A stretch of 32,034 nucleotides of DNA. It comes from Pseudomonadota bacterium (lineage in GTDB: Bacteria > Pseudomonadota > Gammaproteobacteria > Steroidobacterales > MnTg04). Positions 1-8,431 of the stretch are shown one piece after another. The stretch lies in NCBI GenBank assembly GCA_022572885.1, contig JACZVC010000032.1:1-32034 (forward strand), written 5' to 3'. The position numbers and the translations under genes are program-made. The notes beneath the pieces are model-generated. The model saw only the letters and a list, made by a program, of their open reading frames with translations. It did no database searches and was not told where the DNA came from. The first letter of the stretch is position 1. Each line of letters begins with the position of its first letter.

Positions 1-2033
1 GCCCATAAGTGCGGGTGGCGTTCCCCGACCCGTACACGACGCTTCCGAAACCCTGCGTTACGAAGTGCTTTCGACAGCGCACTTTCAATCCCTTTGTTTA
101 CTTTTAGGTCACGGTTCGAAAAAGCGATCAAAGTATTAAGTTCGAATAGTTCGCCCGGATTAATTAAGCCCTGAAATTGTAAAACGCTATCGGGGTCGTC
201 GCGCAGTAGGCGCGTAAATCTATTAAGGTCTGAAAGTGACAGGTCTTGCATATCCTTCTTGGCGTCGGTAATCGGCGCATCGACGTACGGAGTGAACCCG
301 GTTAGGTCTACTTCGTTTTCCAGATACCAACGGAACGCCGCTACGCCGCGACGTTGCCCGTTCGGATTGTCGGGCGACGGTTTGTCACGCCAGCGTCGAA
401 GGTCGGCGTAAAACTTGTTGGATTTTTTCGGTTGTGACACTTCGACGACAAAAAGGCGCCGATCTTGGTCTTCCAGAAAAAACGCGTCAACATGGTTCGA
501 CGTAAAGAAATAATTAGTGCAGTCCTTAAGGAAGTATTGCGGCGCGAATTTCTTATTAATTTCTACCTGTTCGCGGGTAATCATCCCCTTTATCTTGTCT
601 GCAAAATGACGCGAGTCGGACCCAGTAATTTCGTCGCCATGCACAAACTGGGTATTTTCCGCATACGCATTAAAGTCGCCACTCAATATGTCGCGGGAAA
701 TTTCGGCGCGGTTCGGGCCGTATATATCACCTACAATTTCAGCTAACATTGACTTGCCTACGCCTTGTTCGCTACTCCAAAAAAGAACCGACGTAAAAAG
801 CTTCGCGCCGGGGTGCTGTATTGGGTAGGCCAGCCATTGCAGGAACCAAGGCTTTTGTTCCGGGCAGTCGGCTAACAGGTAATCAATTAGGGCCAGTACG
901 GGACGGACGTTACCCTTGATCGCTTCGACGCCCCAACCTGGCCAAGTATTAATTTTGTTATCGACAACAGACGGTGCACCGGGAGCGTAGGTAATGTCGT
1001 CGTACTCGCAACGTTGCGGCCACTTAATCCATTCGACGGCGGCAGATAACGTTTTTTTACCGACGGTATACGTTAATGGTGCAAACGCGGTTATTAATTC
1101 GTCCTTTCGGTAGAAATCAGAAATTTCGGTATCCCAAAACGCTTTAAGCTTTCGGACGTAGCCGACGCGACTATTAATAAAGTGCAATAGTGTCGTTTCT
1201 TCGCAGTCTTCGACTTCTAGTTCGTCCAGCGCGTTCGTTGAAAATTTCTTCTCCACTAAGTAGTCGTCGATACCGACCTTAACGCCGGTGGCTTCAAAAT
1301 CTGGCAGATTGATAATTTTCGGCAATGCGCCGAGGTTCGTTAGCTCATGTATGAGGCGGCCCAATGCGGCGCGCACGTTTGGTTTGTCAACAATGTCGTT
1401 ATCGAAAACGATAAAGACGATCCGGCCTCCCCATTGTATTTGTGAGAATTCGGGTAATAGTTTGCCGTCCTTAAGGAACGCATAAACGCCAGCCAGGCCG
1501 ATCGCAGCGCAACCTATACGCGCCAGCGCGTTGGCCTTGAACGGACCCTCAGTAAAGAAAATATCAATTTCAATATGTTTAGCTATGTGCTTCCATGACC
1601 GCCGCTGATGCCTGTTAGGCCATGTACGGGCAAAGTAGAAGAATGGGCCTAACTTTGGCGCGCCAATGAATCGAATTTCCTTACCCTGGCGGTCATAAAC
1701 GGCTTCCAGGTAGCGGACGTACCAGTAGCCCTTAACGACCCGACTGTTTATATCGTCGTAGATAATCTGTAGCGAGGGTACGCGCGCCGTATACGTCGCT
1801 AACATCGCGGTTTCGTCGGGCGTTAGATATTTTACTTTTAACTTTTTAAGATACTGCCCGACCATGCCGCGCGCCGCCAGGTACACCACGGCCAGCTTTT
1901 TCGACATTGCTTTTAGGGCGGTTTTTGACGTAGACTTAGGCCGCGAATTCTTAGCTTTGGTCGGTTTCGAAGACGCACGTTTGAAGCCTCGCCCTGTCGC
2001 CGCAGAGCGGGGTTTCTGCTTTTTGGAATTCAT
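1..2033 (-). CDS. Primase-helicase-like protein (DUF3854 TOPRIM-like plus DUF5906 helicase), partial
   Basis: This reading frame stays open from an ATG at 2033 to the left edge, giving 677 codons with no stop, so the C-terminus is missing. Residues 1-45 are Lys/Arg/Ser-rich and probably disordered. Residues about 155-260 resemble the TOPRIM-like DUF3854 domain, with TEGPFKAN (E162, K166), FDND (D211, D213) and a KVGIDDYL signature. Residues about 390-540 form an SF3/D5-type ATPase: Walker A SEQGVGKS at 421-428, acidic GDE at 466-468, a sensor TSN at 511-513, and an arginine pair DRR at 524-526. This matches the DUF5906 family, which includes the helicase part of phage NrS-1-type primase-polymerases. 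No AEP primase catalytic motif is visible in the part present. The likely role is initiating replication of the mobile element. A GGGGAA ribosome site precedes the ATG. Confidence 0.8.
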   Translation of the reverse strand, partial: MNSKKQKPRSAATGRGFKRASSKPTKAKNSRPKSTSKTALKAMSKKLAVVYLAARGMVGQYLKKLKVKYLTPDETAMLATYTARVPSLQIIYDDINSRVVKGYWYVRYLEAVYDRQGKEIRFIGAPKLGPFFYFARTWPNRHQRRSWKHIAKHIEIDIFFTEGPFKANALARIGCAAIGLAGVYAFLKDGKLLPEFSQIQWGGRIVFIVFDNDIVDKPNVRAALGRLIHELTNLGALPKIINLPDFEATGVKVGIDDYLVEKKFSTNALDELEVEDCEETTLLHFINSRVGYVRKLKAFWDTEISDFYRKDELITAFAPLTYTVGKKTLSAAVEWIKWPQRCEYDDITYAPGAPSVVDNKINTWPGWGVEAIKGNVRPVLALIDYLLADCPEQKPWFLQWLAYPIQHPGAKLFTSVLFWSSEQGVGKSMLAEIVGDIYGPNRAEISRDILSGDFNAYAENTQFVHGDEITGSDSRHFADKIKGMITREQVEINKKFAPQYFLKDCTNYFFTSNHVDAFFLEDQDRRLFVVEVSQPKKSNKFYADLRRWRDKPSPDNPNGQRRGVAAFRWYLENEVDLTGFTPYVDAPITDAKKDMQDLSLSDLNRFTRLLRDDPDSVLQFQGLINPGELFELNTLIAFSNRDLKVNKGIESALSKALRNAGFRKRRVRVGERHPHLW

Positions 2034-2120
2034 TAATTAGGTTCCCCATTTAGGCTTCGGGTCATCAATAGGTAGCTACTGATTTACCAATAGGTTGTTG
2101 GTCGTCGTTAATACGCCGTC

Positions 2121-2363
2121 CTACGACTTTTGCAAATTCGGTAGGTTGCTAGTCGCCGTATACGGCCCCGGTATAATTGCCGCTAGTGCTTCGCGTACTT
2201 CGTATTCGTACCAGACTGCGCGTTGCTTATCTCGCCGGGGCGGTGGGAAAGTGCCATCGCGAACGCGACGGTAAATCGTTGGCGCGGACCAACCGGTAAG
2301 TTTCATTACTTCTCGCTTGGTCATCAGACGAAGTTCTTCCAAAGGTCGTTTTGTCTCGGTCAT
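2121..2363 (-). CDS. alpA: AlpA/excisionase-type helix-turn-helix regulator
   Basis: This small basic protein of 80 residues carries the AlpA/MerR-like DNA-binding pattern: LMTKREVMKLTG, then SAPTIYRRVRDGTFPPP, then a WYEYEVREAL segment. In satellites such as P4 and in related islands, AlpA-type proteins act as excisionases and regulators that control the neighbouring integrase. I chose the ATG at 2363 because a GGAG box (2373-2376, complement) lies 9 nt upstream. A TTG five codons further upstream is in frame but has no better ribosome site. The gene sits between the integrase and the primase-helicase gene, all on the same strand, which fits an early replication and excision module. Confidence 0.82.
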   Translation of the reverse strand: MTETKRPLEELRLMTKREVMKLTGWSAPTIYRRVRDGTFPPPRRDKQRAVWYEYEVREALAAIIPGPYTATSNLPNLQKS

Positions 2364-2671
2364 TTTGCTGTACTCCAAGGAGCCGCTTTAGATCATCGTG
2401 CGAACTATTTTAACTCTGTAAAACAAGCAAGCCCATCCGAGAAATGTCAACGTAGTATGGGTCGTATCAAAGGCATGTAAGGTTTGTTTTTCGTCGTTGT
2501 AGAACGTACGGGGGCTTGCCGAGAATTTTCCGTAGCGCTTCTTAACATGACCGACGAAAATACGAAGACGAACTATTTTTTGCGAGGGGTAGGCGCGACA
2601 TAGTTTCGCGCGGGAGTTACGCAAAACGTGGCGAATTAAAAAAATTCCTATTTCGGCTTTAGTTTTCGAGC
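2364..2671. other. Non-coding interval between alpA and the integrase
   Basis: This stretch of about 300 bases separates the integrase stop from the alpA start. A 78-codon minus-strand frame crosses it (2388-2624), but it has no recognisable domain, an unnatural composition and no clear ribosome site, so I do not call it a gene. A TAAAAT box on the minus strand (2407-2412) could be the -10 of an alpA promoter, but no -35 at proper spacing is visible. No strong hairpin or repeat was seen. Confidence 0.5.
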
Positions 2672-3916
2672 CTAACTAGCCGCACGTATGGGGATAACTT
2701 TTTTCTGGCGTCCTTCGACAATCGTTTGCAAATGGTCGGCCCATATTTGCAACGCGTCGCGCTTTTCCTGTGCGTAATCATGGCGGTCGTAGATCGCCGT
2801 CACGCCGCTTTCGGCGTGATTGAGTACCTTCGATACGTGCAAGCGGGGAACGCCTAAAGCGGTCATGTGACTGGCGGCGGTCCGGCGTAGGTCGTGAACG
2901 CCAAACGACGAAATATTGAACTTGGGGCGGTTACGCGTGAGCGCGCGGGTTATCGCTTCGGCGCGTATGGGTTCGCCTTGCACCGTAGGCGACGGTAATA
3001 CGAATTCGCTTCTTGCTTCGTCCTTCTTTTCCGCCTTCGTCGTTACCAGTTCGTCCAGATCCTTAAGTAACGAAATTGCCAAGTCGGACAGGGGGACTGT
3101 ATGGGCACGTCCGTTCTTCGCATCTTCCGCCGGTATTTGCCACGATTTGGCGTCCAAGTCGATAGCATCCCAACGCGCGTTAGCCAGTTCGCCCCGGCGT
3201 TGAGCCGTGACCAGTAACAAGCGAAGCGCGGTTCGTAGCGCGGCGGTCATTTCGCACTGGTCCAGCGTCACCCAAAACGTCTTTACTTCGTCGTCGGTCA
3301 GGGTCCGGTCGCGGGACGGTTCCCGGCCCCCTGGTTTGTCCAGGGCAACACAAGGGCTGGTTTCCAGTATAGCGCGGCGTACGCCGAATTCGAACATTTG
3401 CTGGACCATTTGGTAGGTCCGGTTGGCCTGAATTGGTGCGCCCCGATCTACGATACCGTCCAGCAATTCGACGACTTCCCGACGGCTAATCGTTGCCGCT
3501 TTACGGTCGCCCCAGGGCGGTAGCACGTCTTTTCCTAGAACCCTTTCGACTTCTATCCAGTTTTTACGGTGATCGCGTACGTAGCGGTCTAGCCATTCGT
3601 CAGCCAGTTCGGCCACGGTATGCCCGTCCACGCCTGTCCGGTTCGAATAGTGGGGAAGCAGGTCTTTGGGGTCCAAGCCGTCGCGGACGGCGCACCGGGC
3701 CGCGCTGTGCAACTTGTGGGCCATTTCCAGCGTAGTGCCTGGGTACTCGCCTATGGTAAGGCGGTGCAGCTTGCCATACCGCCGGTAGACGTATACAAAG
3801 GTCCTAGTACCTGTCCGACCGACCCGGATTCGCAGCCCGTGTCCGTTTGTCTCGCTTTTTTCGTAGCGTTTGCCGGTCGCTTTTAGGGACTGGATGCCCC
3901 GGTCCGTGAATTTCAT
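2672..3916 (-). CDS. int: Tyrosine recombinase, phage-type integrase
   Basis: This 414-residue protein would catalyse site-specific insertion and excision of the element at a tRNA gene. The order is that of P4-type integrases: an N-terminal arm-binding DUF4102 domain (residues 1-90), a SAM-like core-binding domain (about 100-190) and a C-terminal catalytic domain (about 205-390). All catalytic residues are visible: R240 in TAQRRGEL, K267, H341 and R344 in HDLRR, H367 in LNHAES, and nucleophile Y376 in AIYDRHD. Length and motif completeness suggest an active enzyme. The ATG at 3916 follows a GGGGGA ribosome site. The gene points away from the tRNA-Pro remnant, and the 230 bases between them contain three copies of an 11-bp repeat that may be its arm-type binding sites. 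Confidence 0.95.
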   Translation of the reverse strand: MKFTDRGIQSLKATGKRYEKSETNGHGLRIRVGRTGTRTFVYVYRRYGKLHRLTIGEYPGTTLEMAHKLHSAARCAVRDGLDPKDLLPHYSNRTGVDGHTVAELADEWLDRYVRDHRKNWIEVERVLGKDVLPPWGDRKAATISRREVVELLDGIVDRGAPIQANRTYQMVQQMFEFGVRRAILETSPCVALDKPGGREPSRDRTLTDDEVKTFWVTLDQCEMTAALRTALRLLLVTAQRRGELANARWDAIDLDAKSWQIPAEDAKNGRAHTVPLSDLAISLLKDLDELVTTKAEKKDEARSEFVLPSPTVQGEPIRAEAITRALTRNRPKFNISSFGVHDLRRTAASHMTALGVPRLHVSKVLNHAESGVTAIYDRHDYAQEKRDALQIWADHLQTIVEGRQKKVIPIRAAS

Positions 3917-3953
3917 AAGCTATCCCCCTAGAGCCTGTCCAACCGGTTAGACT

Positions 3954-4046
3954 GTGGGTATACTCACCGCCGGGTCCGGCCCCGAAAATTCGTTTTACGG
4001 ACAGGGGGTCGGCACGAAAGGCACGTGGGCATACTGTGGGTATACT
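3954..4046. repeat. Three copies of 11-bp GTGGGYATACT near the integrase
   Basis: GTGGGTATACT occurs at 3954-3964, GTGGGCATACT at 4025-4035 and GTGGGTATACT at 4036-4046, the last two head-to-tail. The outer copies share a 14-base match, ACTGTGGGTATACT. They sit between the integrase start and the tRNA remnant. Short direct repeats in this position are usual for arm-type binding sites of tyrosine integrases or for excisionase/AlpA operators, but the function here is inferred from position only. Confidence 0.7.
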
Positions 4047-4151
4047 ATTGCATTTGTTTCACGTTGCAAAGAAGTGAAATTAAATGAAATCTAAAACCGC
4101 CGTTAAAGCCTGAAAAGATTGACATTTTTGGTGGTTAAGGGATTTTCAAGT

Positions 4152-4223
4152 CGGGTCAGCTTATAAAGGCTGTTCTGCTTTGGGAGCAGAAGGTCGGGGG
4201 TTCGAATCCCTCTGCCCCGACCA
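4152..4223 (+). tRNA. tRNA-Pro(TGG) 3' half; 5' half disrupted, likely attachment-site remnant
   Basis: From 4174 the sequence is a normal tRNA-Pro: anticodon stem TCTGC/GCAGA with loop TTTGGGA (anticodon TGG at 4181-4183), a T-arm with TTCGAAT, the acceptor strand TGCCCCG, and ACCA ending at 4223. Upstream, CGGGTCA (4152-4158) could pair with the acceptor at 6 of 7 positions. However, only 15 bases separate it from the anticodon stem, and no D-loop with GG is present. The simplest reading is that an element inserted into the tRNA gene and left its displaced 3' half here, with the intact gene rebuilt at the other end, outside the window. A functional but aberrant tRNA is less likely. Confidence 0.6.
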
Positions 4224-4248: not shown

Positions 4249-4325
4249 GCGCCCGTAGCTCAACCGGATAGAGCATCGGCCTTCTAAGCCGAGGGTTGCA
4301 GGTTCGAGTCCTGCCGGGCGCGCCA
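4249..4325 (+). tRNA. tRNA-Arg(TCT)
   Basis: A complete cloverleaf of 77 nt. The acceptor GCGCCCG pairs with CGGGCGC, the D-arm contains AGCTCAACCGGATAGAGC, the anticodon loop CTTCTAA gives anticodon TCT, the T-arm is CAGG/CCTG with TTCGAGT, and the CCA is encoded. It starts 25 nt after the tRNA-Pro remnant, as expected for a former tRNA array. Confidence 0.97.
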
Positions 4326-4336
4326 TATTTCCTGCA

Positions 4337-4354
4337 GACGCTTGATCAAGCGTC
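4337..4354. repeat. Perfect 18-bp palindrome downstream of tRNA-Arg
   Basis: GACGCTTGATCAAGCGTC reads the same on both strands. It lies 11 nt after the tRNA-Arg CCA end and about 180 nt before the first exported-protein gene. No T-run follows, so it is not a typical intrinsic terminator. It could be a transcript-processing hairpin or a protein-binding site. The rest of 4326-4530 shows nothing else I can support. Confidence 0.5.
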
Positions 4355-4530
4355 GCGTAATACAATTCGTGCTTTTAGCCGATATTCAGCTTTCGTTCAT
4401 AATGACGCGGTATGCTTCAATCACTGCAATTCAAGCTGTAGAAAAGTCTATAGAACGAAACAGCAGAATTGAGTGAACGAATGACCAAGGCCCAACTTAT
4501 AGGTGCCAGTTGTTATTCAGGGGGAAAACG

Positions 4531-5130
4531 GTGAAGAAGTCGTTCATGGCGATACTTGCGACCGCGACGTTATTGGGCAGTGGGGTTGCCCGGGCGGCCG
4601 AATGCAGGTACGAACAAAATACCACCGATAAACTGAGCAATGAAATCGTCGTCATTACCAGGTGGGATGAATTAACCCACTGGTTGAGACAGATTGCCAG
4701 GGAGATTACTGGCCATGTGTCGGCTGCTTCCTATGGGGACCAAAAATATCTTCGCATACAAATTGAGCATGCGAGGCCGAGCATATTAGCGCCAAGCCAG
4801 GGCGTGCTGGAAAATTCGATCGCGGTTCCCGATGGCGGCGAACTTCTTGTTGCGATGGAAGACGGCACCGTCATTACGCTATACGCGGATCGGGCGGTAA
4901 CCGGTCATACCACTTTCGTCCCGCCGCATACCGGAGAGTATGACAACGATTTCTATTGGCTCACAACGTTTGCCACAATCCAGTACGACCTGGATGCCAG
5001 CGCCCTGGAAGCGCTAATGGCGCAAGGCGCCAAAGCCGTGCGCATATTCACGAGTACGGGTTACCACGATATTCGAATACACAAACGAAATCTCGGCGAT
5101 ATCCAGAAAGCCATCGGATGCATTTTGTAA
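4531..5130 (+). CDS. Exported two-cysteine protein, tandem family member 1
   Basis: I do not recognise this 199-residue protein. I chose the GTG at 4531 because AGGGGGA lies just upstream and because it gives a clean Sec signal peptide: KK, a hydrophobic stretch, then cleavage near ARA before AECRYE. A TTG at 4510 is in frame but less likely. The mature protein has one cysteine just after cleavage and one near the C-terminus (IQKAIGC), which suggests a disulfide in the periplasm or outside the cell. Patterns shared with the next three genes include a Trp-Asp/Asn-x-Leu-Thr segment, VSAASYGDQKYLRI, a VP-x-G segment followed by MEDGT, and YDLDASALEALMAQ. It heads an apparent operon, 34 nt before member 2. 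Function unknown. Confidence 0.85.
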   Translation: MKKSFMAILATATLLGSGVARAAECRYEQNTTDKLSNEIVVITRWDELTHWLRQIAREITGHVSAASYGDQKYLRIQIEHARPSILAPSQGVLENSIAVPDGGELLVAMEDGTVITLYADRAVTGHTTFVPPHTGEYDNDFYWLTTFATIQYDLDASALEALMAQGAKAVRIFTSTGYHDIRIHKRNLGDIQKAIGCIL

Positions 5131-5164
5131 AAGTAACGACAACAGAAATCAAGGGGAAACACCA

Positions 5165-5803
5165 ATGAAAAACATCTTGATCTCACTCTTTGCAATCACG
5201 GCGTTACTTGTCAACGGATCTGCGCTGGCCGCCAAATGCAAATATGAAGAAGAAACCGCAGACTTGTTCAGCGGCGTGAAAACCGTTCGTACCAAGTGGA
5301 ATAAACTCACTCCGTGGGGGGAAAAGGGGGTCCATTTTTGGAGCGCTAAAGGGGAAACCTCAATTTTTGTGTCCGTCATTTCAGAAGGCGGCGACAAGCG
5401 TCTTGGCATACGAATAAAATTCAAAAGAAAATCTCAATTCAAACCGACCCGTGAAGAACTGGAAAACGCGATACTCGTTCCCGCAGGCACCAATCTTCTG
5501 ATAAAGCTGGCGGACGACACGGTTGTTGCACTTCCTGCACTTGAACTCGCGCAGGGGGTTTCCGGATTTACCCGGCCATATGCCAACGGTACCGATGATT
5601 ATATTCTTGTAACGCAGGCTGTCATCGAGTATGGATTGGATGCCAGCGCCGCAGAAGCGCTGACAGCGCAAAGATCGGTCGCCTTGGGAATAGTCACCAG
5701 CACCGGGCGCTTTGACATCCCGGTAACCAAAAAAAACCGGGACGACATAAAGCAAGCCATTGAATGCGCGCTGTGGAAAAAAAGAGAAGGGGATAAAAAA
5801 TGA
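5165..5803 (+). CDS. Exported two-cysteine protein, tandem family member 2
   Basis: This 212-residue protein is a paralogue of the preceding gene and has no function I can name. The signal peptide is clear (MKNILISLF, then cleavage near ALA before AKCKYEE). The two conserved cysteines are present, in CKYEE and IECALW. Shared blocks are RTKWNKLTPW, VSVISEGGDKRLGI, LVPAGTNLL, KLADDTV and YGLDASAAEALTAQ. The lysine-rich tail (KKREGDKK) is unusual within the set. The ATG at 5165 follows AAGGGGAAAC. The stop overlaps the start of member 3 in an ATGA (5800-5803), so the two are probably translationally coupled. Confidence 0.87.
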   Translation: MKNILISLFAITALLVNGSALAAKCKYEEETADLFSGVKTVRTKWNKLTPWGEKGVHFWSAKGETSIFVSVISEGGDKRLGIRIKFKRKSQFKPTREELENAILVPAGTNLLIKLADDTVVALPALELAQGVSGFTRPYANGTDDYILVTQAVIEYGLDASAAEALTAQRSVALGIVTSTGRFDIPVTKKNRDDIKQAIECALWKKREGDKK

Positions 5804-6594
5804 ACAAAATCATTTTCAGGACACTCCTAATCCCGCTGTTGCTTGGGACTCAGCTTGGCTACGCCGCGAGTGCCAGTTGCAAATACCAGGCAGAAGGATT
5901 GGACCCGGCAACCAATGAGAAAATCATTCAGACGAAGTGGGACAGGCTGACCACCATGTTTGGCGACACCAAAACCTCGCAGGGTTTTGTGTCCGCCATT
6001 TCCGCAGGCGATGCAAAATATCTTGGCATCAAGTTGAAAATCGTTGACTACTACGCGTTTCCCTTCCTTACTCCCTACAGCATGAAATACCTCAGCGGGC
6101 CCAAAAAAGCACCGCCGGCTGACGATCCCAGGTATCTGGATTTTTTGGACATGCTTTTGGGGGATTCGCTGATCGTCCCTGAAGGATCCACCTTGCGGAT
6201 AACGATGGCCGATCGATCGACCATGGTGCTTACTTCAAGCGAGCATGTCAGGGCGCGTGGCAATTACACGGACCCGTTCCAGAAAAGGAGGTCAAAAAAG
6301 GGCCTGGGCGGGTTTCTGAAGAAGGTAGCCGCGGCGGCTATCGACGCCGAGATTGAAGGAGAGGATGTCGTTAACCGGAATTTCCTTGTTGAAGCTACAG
6401 CCGTCATGCGCTACGGGCTGGATGACGAGGCCCTGGCGGTGTTACGCAAATCAGCAATTACCAGCATGCGTGTGGAAACTCGCGATCGATACTACGCCCT
6501 GGGGCTTCGAAATCGCTTCGAAAACGTGGAGTGGGGCAAGAAATCAAGGGTCAAAGTTCAAAAAGCTTTGCAGTGTGTTGCAAAAAGGGGTTAG
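5800..6594 (+). CDS. Exported two-cysteine protein, tandem family member 3 (enlarged)
   Basis: This 264-residue paralogue has a signal peptide ending near YAASA and the family cysteines in CKYQAE and ALQCVAKRG. It keeps the blocks TKWDRLT, VSAISAGDAKYLGI, IVPEGSTLRI, TMADRST and MRYGLDDEALAVL. It is longer than its neighbours because of two insertions. One is an aromatic and proline-rich stretch at about residues 88-125, before the IVPEG block. The other is a basic, glycine-containing stretch at about 160-185 (RRSKKGLGGFLKK). AGGGG precedes the ATG, which overlaps the previous stop by 4 nt. The extra segments could add a partner- or membrane-binding surface, but this is inference. Function unknown. 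Confidence 0.86.
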   Translation: MNKIIFRTLLIPLLLGTQLGYAASASCKYQAEGLDPATNEKIIQTKWDRLTTMFGDTKTSQGFVSAISAGDAKYLGIKLKIVDYYAFPFLTPYSMKYLSGPKKAPPADDPRYLDFLDMLLGDSLIVPEGSTLRITMADRSTMVLTSSEHVRARGNYTDPFQKRRSKKGLGGFLKKVAAAAIDAEIEGEDVVNRNFLVEATAVMRYGLDDEALAVLRKSAITSMRVETRDRYYALGLRNRFENVEWGKKSRVKVQKALQCVAKRG

Positions 6595-6677
6595 GAATCT
6601 GCGCATCAGGAACCCTGACACGCAGACTCCAGGCAACAATGCAGCACGGTGACCATCACAACGAGGCAGGACATTAA

Positions 6678-7283
6678 ATGAAAAAATTCATCGCATTATC
6701 GATCGCGGTATTGATGATTTTGGGGCCCACCGCTACCAATGCCGCCAAATGCAAATTCCAGACCGATATCGCCAGCCGCGACACCGGGGAGAAGGTTCGC
6801 TGGACGCGTTGGGTCAGGGACAAGTTCTACCATAAAGGGAACTATGGCTTGCTCGCAGCGGTCTCCGAAGGCGACCAAAAGTATCTTGCCGTGCAGGTGG
6901 TCGTTGGCGCCGGCGCGCGCTACAACAGCGACATCATGGGTGGGGTGCAGGTTAGTCTCAGGCCGACCAAGGAAGCGCTCGACGCCGCATTGGTCATTCC
7001 CGAGGGAGCCACGCTTTCGATAACGATGGCGGACAATACGGTATATGAGCTTGTTGCTGAAAACGAGGTCATCGGGGATTCCGACTTTGTGACCCGCGGC
7101 ATGGATCATTATTCGGTGGCTTCATACGCGGTCATCAAGTATCTGCTGGATGCCGATGCGATCGCCGCGCTGAGCGCGCAGCGCGCAAAAGGCTTTAAAG
7201 TTCAGGCCAACGGCAAAGAATATGCGTTCAGCTTTGGCAAGAAACCGGTCGATAAGATACAGAAAATTATCGCTTGTATTTAG
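6678..7283 (+). CDS. Exported two-cysteine protein, tandem family member 4
   Basis: This 201-residue protein closes the set of four paralogues. It has a signal peptide (MKKFIALSIAVLMILG, cleavage near TNAA), a first cysteine in AAKCKFQ and a last cysteine in IQKIIACI at the very C-terminus. Shared blocks are TRWVRDKF, LAAVSEGDQKYLAV, VIPEGATLSI, TMADNTV and KYLLDADAIAALSAQ. It lies 83 nt after member 3 and is followed by a small hairpin (7288-7306) that may end the transcript. No enzymatic motif is visible in any of the four, and the size and layout suggest small secreted or periplasmic binding proteins. Function unknown. Confidence 0.87.
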   Translation: MKKFIALSIAVLMILGPTATNAAKCKFQTDIASRDTGEKVRWTRWVRDKFYHKGNYGLLAAVSEGDQKYLAVQVVVGAGARYNSDIMGGVQVSLRPTKEALDAALVIPEGATLSITMADNTVYELVAENEVIGDSDFVTRGMDHYSVASYAVIKYLLDADAIAALSAQRAKGFKVQANGKEYAFSFGKKPVDKIQKIIACI

Positions 7284-7287
7284 CAAA

Positions 7288-7306
7288 AATGGCTTCGTAA
7301 GCCATT
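7288..7306 (+). terminator. Weak hairpin after the exported-protein operon
   Basis: AATGGCTT and AAGCCATT form an 8-bp stem with a 3-nt CGT loop, 4 nt after the stop of member 4. The downstream tract (GATTTGTC) is only partly T-rich, so this is a weak intrinsic terminator at best. Confidence 0.4.
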
Positions 7307-7309
7307 GAT

Positions 7310-7338
7310 TTGTCAAATAACCCCATCTCGGCTAGGAT
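7310..7338 (+). promoter_or_regulatory. Candidate promoter upstream of tRNA-His
   Basis: TTGTCA (7310-7315) and TAGGAT (7333-7338) are separated by 17 nt, close to a sigma-70 pattern, and the tRNA starts about 60 nt downstream. If real, the tRNA-His/tRNA-Lys part of the array has its own promoter after the upstream insertion. A TAAAAT at 7369-7374 is an alternative -10 without a clear -35. Confidence 0.4.
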
Positions 7339-7397
7339 GCCCGCCGCGCCAGATTGAACGAAAACAGGTAAAATAGCCGAGAAATCTAAAAAACCAT

Positions 7398-7474
7398 GGT
7401 GGGCGTAGCTCAGTTGGTAGAGCCCCGGATTGTGATTCCGGTGGTCGTGGGTTCGAGCCCCATCGTCCACCCCA
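7398..7474 (+). tRNA. tRNA-His(GTG)
   Basis: A complete cloverleaf. The acceptor GTGGGCG pairs with CGTCCAC, the extra G-1 (7398) sits opposite discriminator C73 as is specific for tRNA-His, the anticodon loop TTGTGAT gives GTG, the T-loop is TTCGAGC, and the CCA is encoded. Confidence 0.96.
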
Positions 7475-7957: not shown

Positions 7958-8230
7958 ATGAGACACCTTTGGAATCTGTTGTTTAGACCTAAAGTTCAGT
8001 CATCGAGACTTTGTGTGTTTCTGAGTTTTGACGACAAGGCCGGCGTTTGGTTTGTCAGCAAGTCAGACGTGCCCGGTTTGAATGCTGAATCCGAGTCCCA
8101 GGACGAGTTGGTCGCGATCGTCAGGGAGTTGGTTCCCGAATTGTTAAAACTCAACGAAAAACGAGACGACGAATTCGCCCCAAGCGGTTTGGTCGTTCGC
8201 TCGCAAATCCAGTTGCCCCTTGCGTCTTAA
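7958..8230 (+). CDS. DUF1902/HicB-like antitoxin
   Basis: This 90-residue protein has the DUF1902 pattern of HicB-like antitoxins: a beta-strand core with WFVSKSDVPGLNAESES, followed by a helix ending in LVPELLKLN. Family members neutralise a HicA toxin encoded next to them and usually repress their own promoter. The order antitoxin then toxin, 3 nt apart, fits that type II toxin-antitoxin layout. No separate DNA-binding domain is obvious, as is normal for DUF1902 proteins. A GGAGG box lies 11 nt before the ATG. The 200 bases upstream are A/T-rich and hold no other gene that I can support. The pair sits between tRNA-Lys and tRNA-Leu, so it was probably acquired there. Confidence 0.8.
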   Translation: MRHLWNLLFRPKVQSSRLCVFLSFDDKAGVWFVSKSDVPGLNAESESQDELVAIVRELVPELLKLNEKRDDEFAPSGLVVRSQIQLPLAS

Positions 8231-8233
8231 CGC

Positions 8234-8431
8234 GTGGGCAGCAGTTTCACGCGGGACGTAAAGAAGATTTTACGGGCAAATGGCTGTAACTACGATCGGC
8301 CAGGCAAAGGGAGTCACGAGATTTGGTACAGCCCGATTTCAGGCAGGTACTTTACCGTCGTGATTGGCTGTAAGAATCGGCATACCGCGAATGGAAGCTT
8401 GAAGGACGCAGGCGTAGACGAGCGAGTGTAA
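8234..8431 (+). CDS. hicA: HicA-family toxin (mRNA interferase)
   Basis: This 65-residue basic protein has the HicA double-stranded-RNA-binding-like fold signature: SFTRDVKKILRANG, then GKGSHEIWYSP with the catalytic-type histidine in GSH, and the terminal RHTANGSLKDAGV. HicA toxins cleave mRNA when free of antitoxin. It begins with GTG 3 nt after the stop of the DUF1902 gene, which implies co-translation. Length and motifs are complete, so the toxin looks intact. A strong bidirectional terminator follows at 8481. Confidence 0.85.
   Translation: MGSSFTRDVKKILRANGCNYDRPGKGSHEIWYSPISGRYFTVVIGCKNRHTANGSLKDAGVDERV

Follow-up and report, generated by a model that had tools for sequence, protein, structure and literature searches.

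Operons of paralogous exported subunits are an established arrangement, in which distinct paralogues of one fold lie side by side, overlap and keep a conserved order. The array analyzed here resembles them in these respects, whereas its unit contains no usher, chaperone, sortase, secretion or processing gene and all of its genes belong to one family. What is new is therefore the family, which is nameless in every library searched, and not the arrangement. In predicted structure the closest described proteins are those of the IalB family (PF06776, structure 3dtd), which are likewise small, exported and beta-rich; matches to IalB come mostly from genomes of other classes, at scattered loci, while the proteins described here are encoded in ordered paralogue operons.

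The window, that is, the whole stretch of DNA analyzed, comprises 32,034 nt (contig JACZVC010000032.1 of assembly GCA_022572885.1, positions 1–32,034, forward strand). Four collinear, consecutive genes occupy 4531–7283 between two tRNA genes identified with ARAGORN, and G004 and G003 below are genomes of the same genus used for comparison:

4249..4325, + strand, tRNA-Arg (TCT)
4312–4325, + strand, left edge of the insertion, the 3' end of tRNA-Arg, TGCCGGGCGCGCCA
4326..4530, + strand, non-coding leader of the inserted cassette, a putative promoter region, absent from the 48-bp Arg–His gap of G004
4531..5130, + strand, member 1 (type 1), 199 aa, GTG start at 4531, signal peptide, Cys25 and Cys197
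5165..5803, + strand, member 2 (type 2, clade support 91/89), 212 aa, Cys25 and Cys201
5800..6594, + strand, member 3 (type 3, clade support 99/97), 264 aa, with extra insertions
6678..7283, + strand, member 4 (type 4, clade support 95/95), 201 aa, Cys25 and Cys200
7338..7351, + strand, right edge of the insertion, TGCCCGCCGCGCCA, an imperfect repeat (12/14 positions) of the tRNA-Arg 3' end TGCCGGGCGCGCCA, placed by comparison with G004 and G003
7399..7474, + strand, tRNA-His (GTG), right neighbour of the insertion

Member 1 has an alternative ATG start at 4546, and no consensus promoter was found on the + strand of the leader (4326..4530).

The first-pass annotation had described the four genes as tandem paralogues, the second and third overlapping by ATGA. 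The overlap lies at 5800–5803, and members 2–4 are 30–42% identical to member 1 (alignment A1). A whole-genome search with member 4 recovered members 2 [1.7e-18], 1 [3.5e-18] and 3 [6.7e-5], so the four are true paralogues; chance similarity was ruled out by these E-values together with the matches to profile A1. The same search, which also answers the suggestion that further paralogues be sought genome-wide, revealed no copy outside the array, the sole match on another contig (C6) having an E-value of 0.019.

Each member begins with a hydrophobic N-terminus followed by an Ala-rich, cleavage-like stretch and the motif C-K/R-Y/F, and carries a second cysteine at the C-terminus. The view that these are exported proteins with two conserved cysteines is sustained: signal sequences, and hence predicted export, occur in all, and exactly two mature cysteines are present in 29 of the 30 members of the family set (the four of the window plus 26 relatives from the searches described below), both being invariant. 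In the alignment of all 30 only four columns, C, D, L and C, are invariant. The hallmarks of the family, namely signal peptide, cysteine after cleavage, invariant Asp, cysteine in the last helix and a full-length profile match, were all found. Since both cysteines are invariant and others are nearly absent (none in 29/30), a disulfide between the N-terminal and the C-terminal cysteine is likely.

The lipobox of bacterial lipoproteins was also looked for. The residue before the first cysteine is K, E, D, Q or R in 24/30 members, S in 4/30 and G in 2/30, and the cleavage-like AxA sits one or more residues upstream of this cysteine. A lipobox (G, A or S before the +1 Cys) is thus absent in nearly all members, the preceding residue being usually K, E, S or D, and member 1 gave only a sub-threshold LPAM_1 match.

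Searches of Pfam, NCBIfam, PHROG, PADLOC and PDB sequences returned no family matching the four members, as the annotation had anticipated in calling the family unrecognised, and PADLOC-DB, searched for known anti-phage defence proteins, gave zero matches at E up to 1. Profile A1, in turn, retrieved the 26 further members (E down to 4e-52), which form arrays of 3–7 members. These arrays occur in five genomes, all from a different, Woeseiaceae-containing family within the same order. A scan of named contigs, made independently, led to the same five MAGs (GTDB records JACZTO010000009.1, JAJFKV010000039.1, WVYQ01000024.1, JAOTVR010000092.1 and JAOUNH010000020.1), two of which are labelled Woeseiaceae and the others Proteobacteria or Gammaproteobacteria. 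Scans by pattern cope poorly with divergent members, and one such scan of genome contigs missed all relatives.

In the Woeseiaceae-containing family 5 of 107 genomes, and one of 12 genera, are positive. No member was found in four other genomes of the genus of the window, three of which are only 73–81% complete, nor in samples of 321 genomes from the class and 349 from the phylum. From these counts the family is rare and patchy. One further candidate (L043 in G049) was discarded, because only its signal peptide matched and the protein is unrelated. Phages, plasmids and viral contigs yielded no match to the family, apart from two plasmid matches at E 0.3, and on this absence phage or plasmid carriage of the array was rejected. 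A relationship to Bacteroidota was also considered, and an invented query for it found nothing among plasmids and phages.

A maximum-likelihood tree of the 30 members groups them by position in the array and not by genome, giving about eight ortholog types. Member 1 clades with its L039, L040 and L038 orthologs (support 100/99), and types 5, 6 and 7 are supported at 97/95, 98/97 and 97/94. Type 8 is supported at 96/93 for two members, while the third (L038 8465) lies nearby without resolution. Long branches weaken the resolution of type 2 and of parts of types 1, 3 and 8; the type 1 member of L038, on a branch of 1.98, diverges strongly and is placed with less certainty. The six arrays read as follows:

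Window, types 1-2-3-4
L039, types 1-2-3-4
L038, types 1-2-3-4, with an additional 8-6-7 block in divergent orientation
L040, types 1-2-3-4-5-6-8
L041, types 3-4-5-6-7, reaching near the contig end
L042, types 8-3-4, at a contig end

The order 1-2-3-4 is thus common to the window and three other arrays, types 3 and 4 are present in all six, and each type is single-copy within any one array. Median identity of the mature proteins is 38.4% within a type across genomes as against 27.8% between the types of one genome. Together with the ortholog tree this indicates that the duplications predate transfer into the lineage of the window, and recent tandem duplication in its genome was ruled out on the same grounds. 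Judged from sequence, the array is an old, ordered operon and not a recent local amplification. Since distantly related bacteria share these four types and their order, we regard the 1-2-3-4 array as an old gene set which has moved horizontally and probably works as a unit.

How the set reached its present location is indicated by its flanks. The same-genus genome G004 has the tRNA order Pro-Arg-His-Lys-Leu, with an Arg–His gap of 48 bp versus 3,073 bp in the window. There an identical tRNA-Arg is followed directly by GATTGAACG and then by tRNA-His; the sequence GATTGAACGAAAACAGGTAAAATAG, which follows tRNA-Arg in G004, stands in the window directly before tRNA-His and is preceded by TGCCCGCCGCGCCA. 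This 12/14 repeat of the tRNA-Arg 3' end sits 47 bp before tRNA-His, with the four genes between both copies. Two repeat copies flanking the genes are the mark expected of integration at the 3' end of tRNA-Arg, and by this comparison of flanks the array arrived as a block, as cargo at the tRNA-Arg site. Its GC content is 52.0% compared with 58.9% in the core downstream. The insert of the window contains no integrase and hence is at present either a remnant or mobile by another route.

At the same site another genome of the genus, G003 (L076:2-1369), has the same right end and other cargo, namely a membrane protein whose resemblance to SLATT_1 is weak [0.0039, short of the curated cut-off] and which has no PADLOC match. 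The different cargo suggests that the tRNA-Arg/tRNA-His site is a cargo hotspot. The contexts of the arrays vary between genomes, and no shared genes were recognised among their neighbours.

The first-pass annotation had proposed tandem amplification with divergence. Its description of tandem, divergent paralogues stands; amplification in the genome of the window does not, since the relatives keep the order and the array came as a block at tRNA-Arg, so that the types were already distinct on arrival. At the level of sequence, the picture of family, types, order and insertion is firm. What appeared to be a tandem duplication becomes a conserved, mobile gene set, and joint action of its members is now directly testable. 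The new family also lends itself to experiments, since its ortholog types are clear, two of its cysteines are invariant and its predicted fold is confident.

AlphaFold2 models of member 1 (mean pLDDT 81, pTM 0.78, four-row alignment) and member 4 (pLDDT 87, pTM 0.81, 30-row alignment) both show a single confident beta-rich domain in which one helix precedes the last strands and another comes last. In the model of member 4, strand 1 is immediately preceded by Cys25, and Cys200 stands where the last helix ends. The best solved-structure match of both is IalB 3dtd (Z 6.7 and 7.2, 126 residues, 4.0–4.2 Å), which leads the next row by about 2 Z units, and in a profile alignment the C-terminal 46 columns fall over the C-terminal module of IalB. 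One might therefore propose that the members are distant PF06776 relatives, exported envelope beta-sandwich proteins working as IalB does. We consider this doubtful. The structural likeness is suggestive only, as Z below 8 may reflect a common arrangement, and Foldseek, which the annotation had recommended for the predicted structures, gave a TM of at most 0.37. No significant sequence relation was found: none of the 30 members had PF06776 among its families at an E cut-off of 10, and hhalign against 25 IalB proteins (E 0.11, probability 0.5%) leaves homology unsupported. The collected IalB sequences have other cysteine patterns (W..C, later C...C/GC), missing here, where 29/30 members possess the N- and C-terminal cysteines only.

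Structure matches to alpha-hemolysin or leukocidin, KirBac and NEAT domains had Z below 5 and were set aside as generic beta-sandwich. The best Foldseek match in the viral library (BFVD) was the unnamed protein A0A1B0WMU9 of 149 aa [4.5e-5, probability 1.00, TM 0.52 by target length], although identity is only 10%. Phage tblastn detected no sequence relative, and Flavobacterium phage records, scanned with A0A1B0WMU9 in mind, yielded no relative.

Across the arrays 17 of the 23 gene junctions overlap, 12 of them by exactly 4 nt; in L039 all three do so. Such frequent 4-nt overlaps look like translational coupling and so support production in proportion. From order, single copies and coupling we infer joint action of the members, and the reading we prefer, with a probability of about 0.45, is that the members, as exported domains each clamped by a disulfide, act in concert and most probably form a heteromer. 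Types 1-2-3-4 would be the conserved core of an operon whose products, small exported proteins, belong to an unnamed family restricted to the lineage. Each protein would pass through the Sec system, be cut just before the C-K/R-Y/F motif and be clamped by a disulfide between its N-terminal cysteine and that of the last helix. The different types would be made in proportion and work together, forming, most likely, a heteromer that is periplasmic or extracellular, and the operon would spread as genomic-island cargo. Type 3, through its extra, amphipathic-looking insertion, may touch the membrane or a partner. Against a heteromer, conserved order and overlaps could reflect block inheritance and not a physical complex, and coupling is looser at the junctions in the window (34, -4 and 83 nt) than in the relatives. 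L041 is without types 1 and 2 and type sets differ among genomes, so that a fixed stoichiometry of all types is not required.

The main rival to a heteromer is a panel of independent exported binders, each type with its own extracellular or envelope ligand, kept together by co-regulation and co-inheritance. High divergence between types (28%), the few invariant residues, the variable array content (4–7 types) and contexts differing as with accessory cargo would suit such a panel, and binding of different partners, as the first-pass annotation put forward, is possible. Conserved order, one copy per type and overlaps nevertheless favour joint action, and a ligand-binding signature was not found; we therefore hold the panel to be a tentative reading, less probable than a heteromer. 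The annotation's other idea, an immunity or inhibitor set against foreign or sister toxins, would fit divergent exported paralogues in tandem, carried as island cargo at a tRNA hotspot where a sibling bears different cargo with a weak SLATT-like match. It has no positive support and we judge it very improbable: next to the six arrays no gene for a toxin, for secretion or for defence was recognised, PADLOC gave no match, and immunity-gene arrays, which are gained by repeated duplication, do not resemble an ordered set of single-copy types. The boldest reading would have the operon encode an exported machine whose parts are all paralogous disulfide-clamped beta-domains, four to eight in number, and which tRNA-targeted islands carry from one gammaproteobacterial family to another; a surface fibre, a pore or a ligand-capture complex would be examples. 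This is a long shot; if true, it would be a previously undescribed kind of machine.

Several minor features may be recorded. Common to type 3 members (in member 3 at 6280–6345 and 6478–6510) are an insertion with a conserved, amphipathic-looking G-G/M-F-L/M segment and an RD-R/N-YY motif, which are missing from most other types. A perfect 8-bp hairpin, AATGGCTT-CGT-AAGCCATT, lies at 7288–7306, just 3' of member 4. The stretch ATTGATTTGTCA at its end is common to the right end of the G003 insert, and the hairpin may thus belong to the island end and not be a terminator. A HicB-like (DUF1902) and HicA toxin-antitoxin pair is located at 7958–8431, between tRNA-Lys and tRNA-Leu, and a similar pair occupies the same place in G003 (L076 2013–2507). 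To the left of the array there is a second mobile element (1–4223), inside which the contig begins, with these genes:

3–2036, - strand, primase-like protein (DUF3854/DUF5906)
2121–2378, - strand, AlpA regulator
2672–3916, - strand, tyrosine integrase

It ends at a 3' fragment of tRNA-Pro (TGG) near 4174–4223, a tRNA which is intact in the sibling G004.
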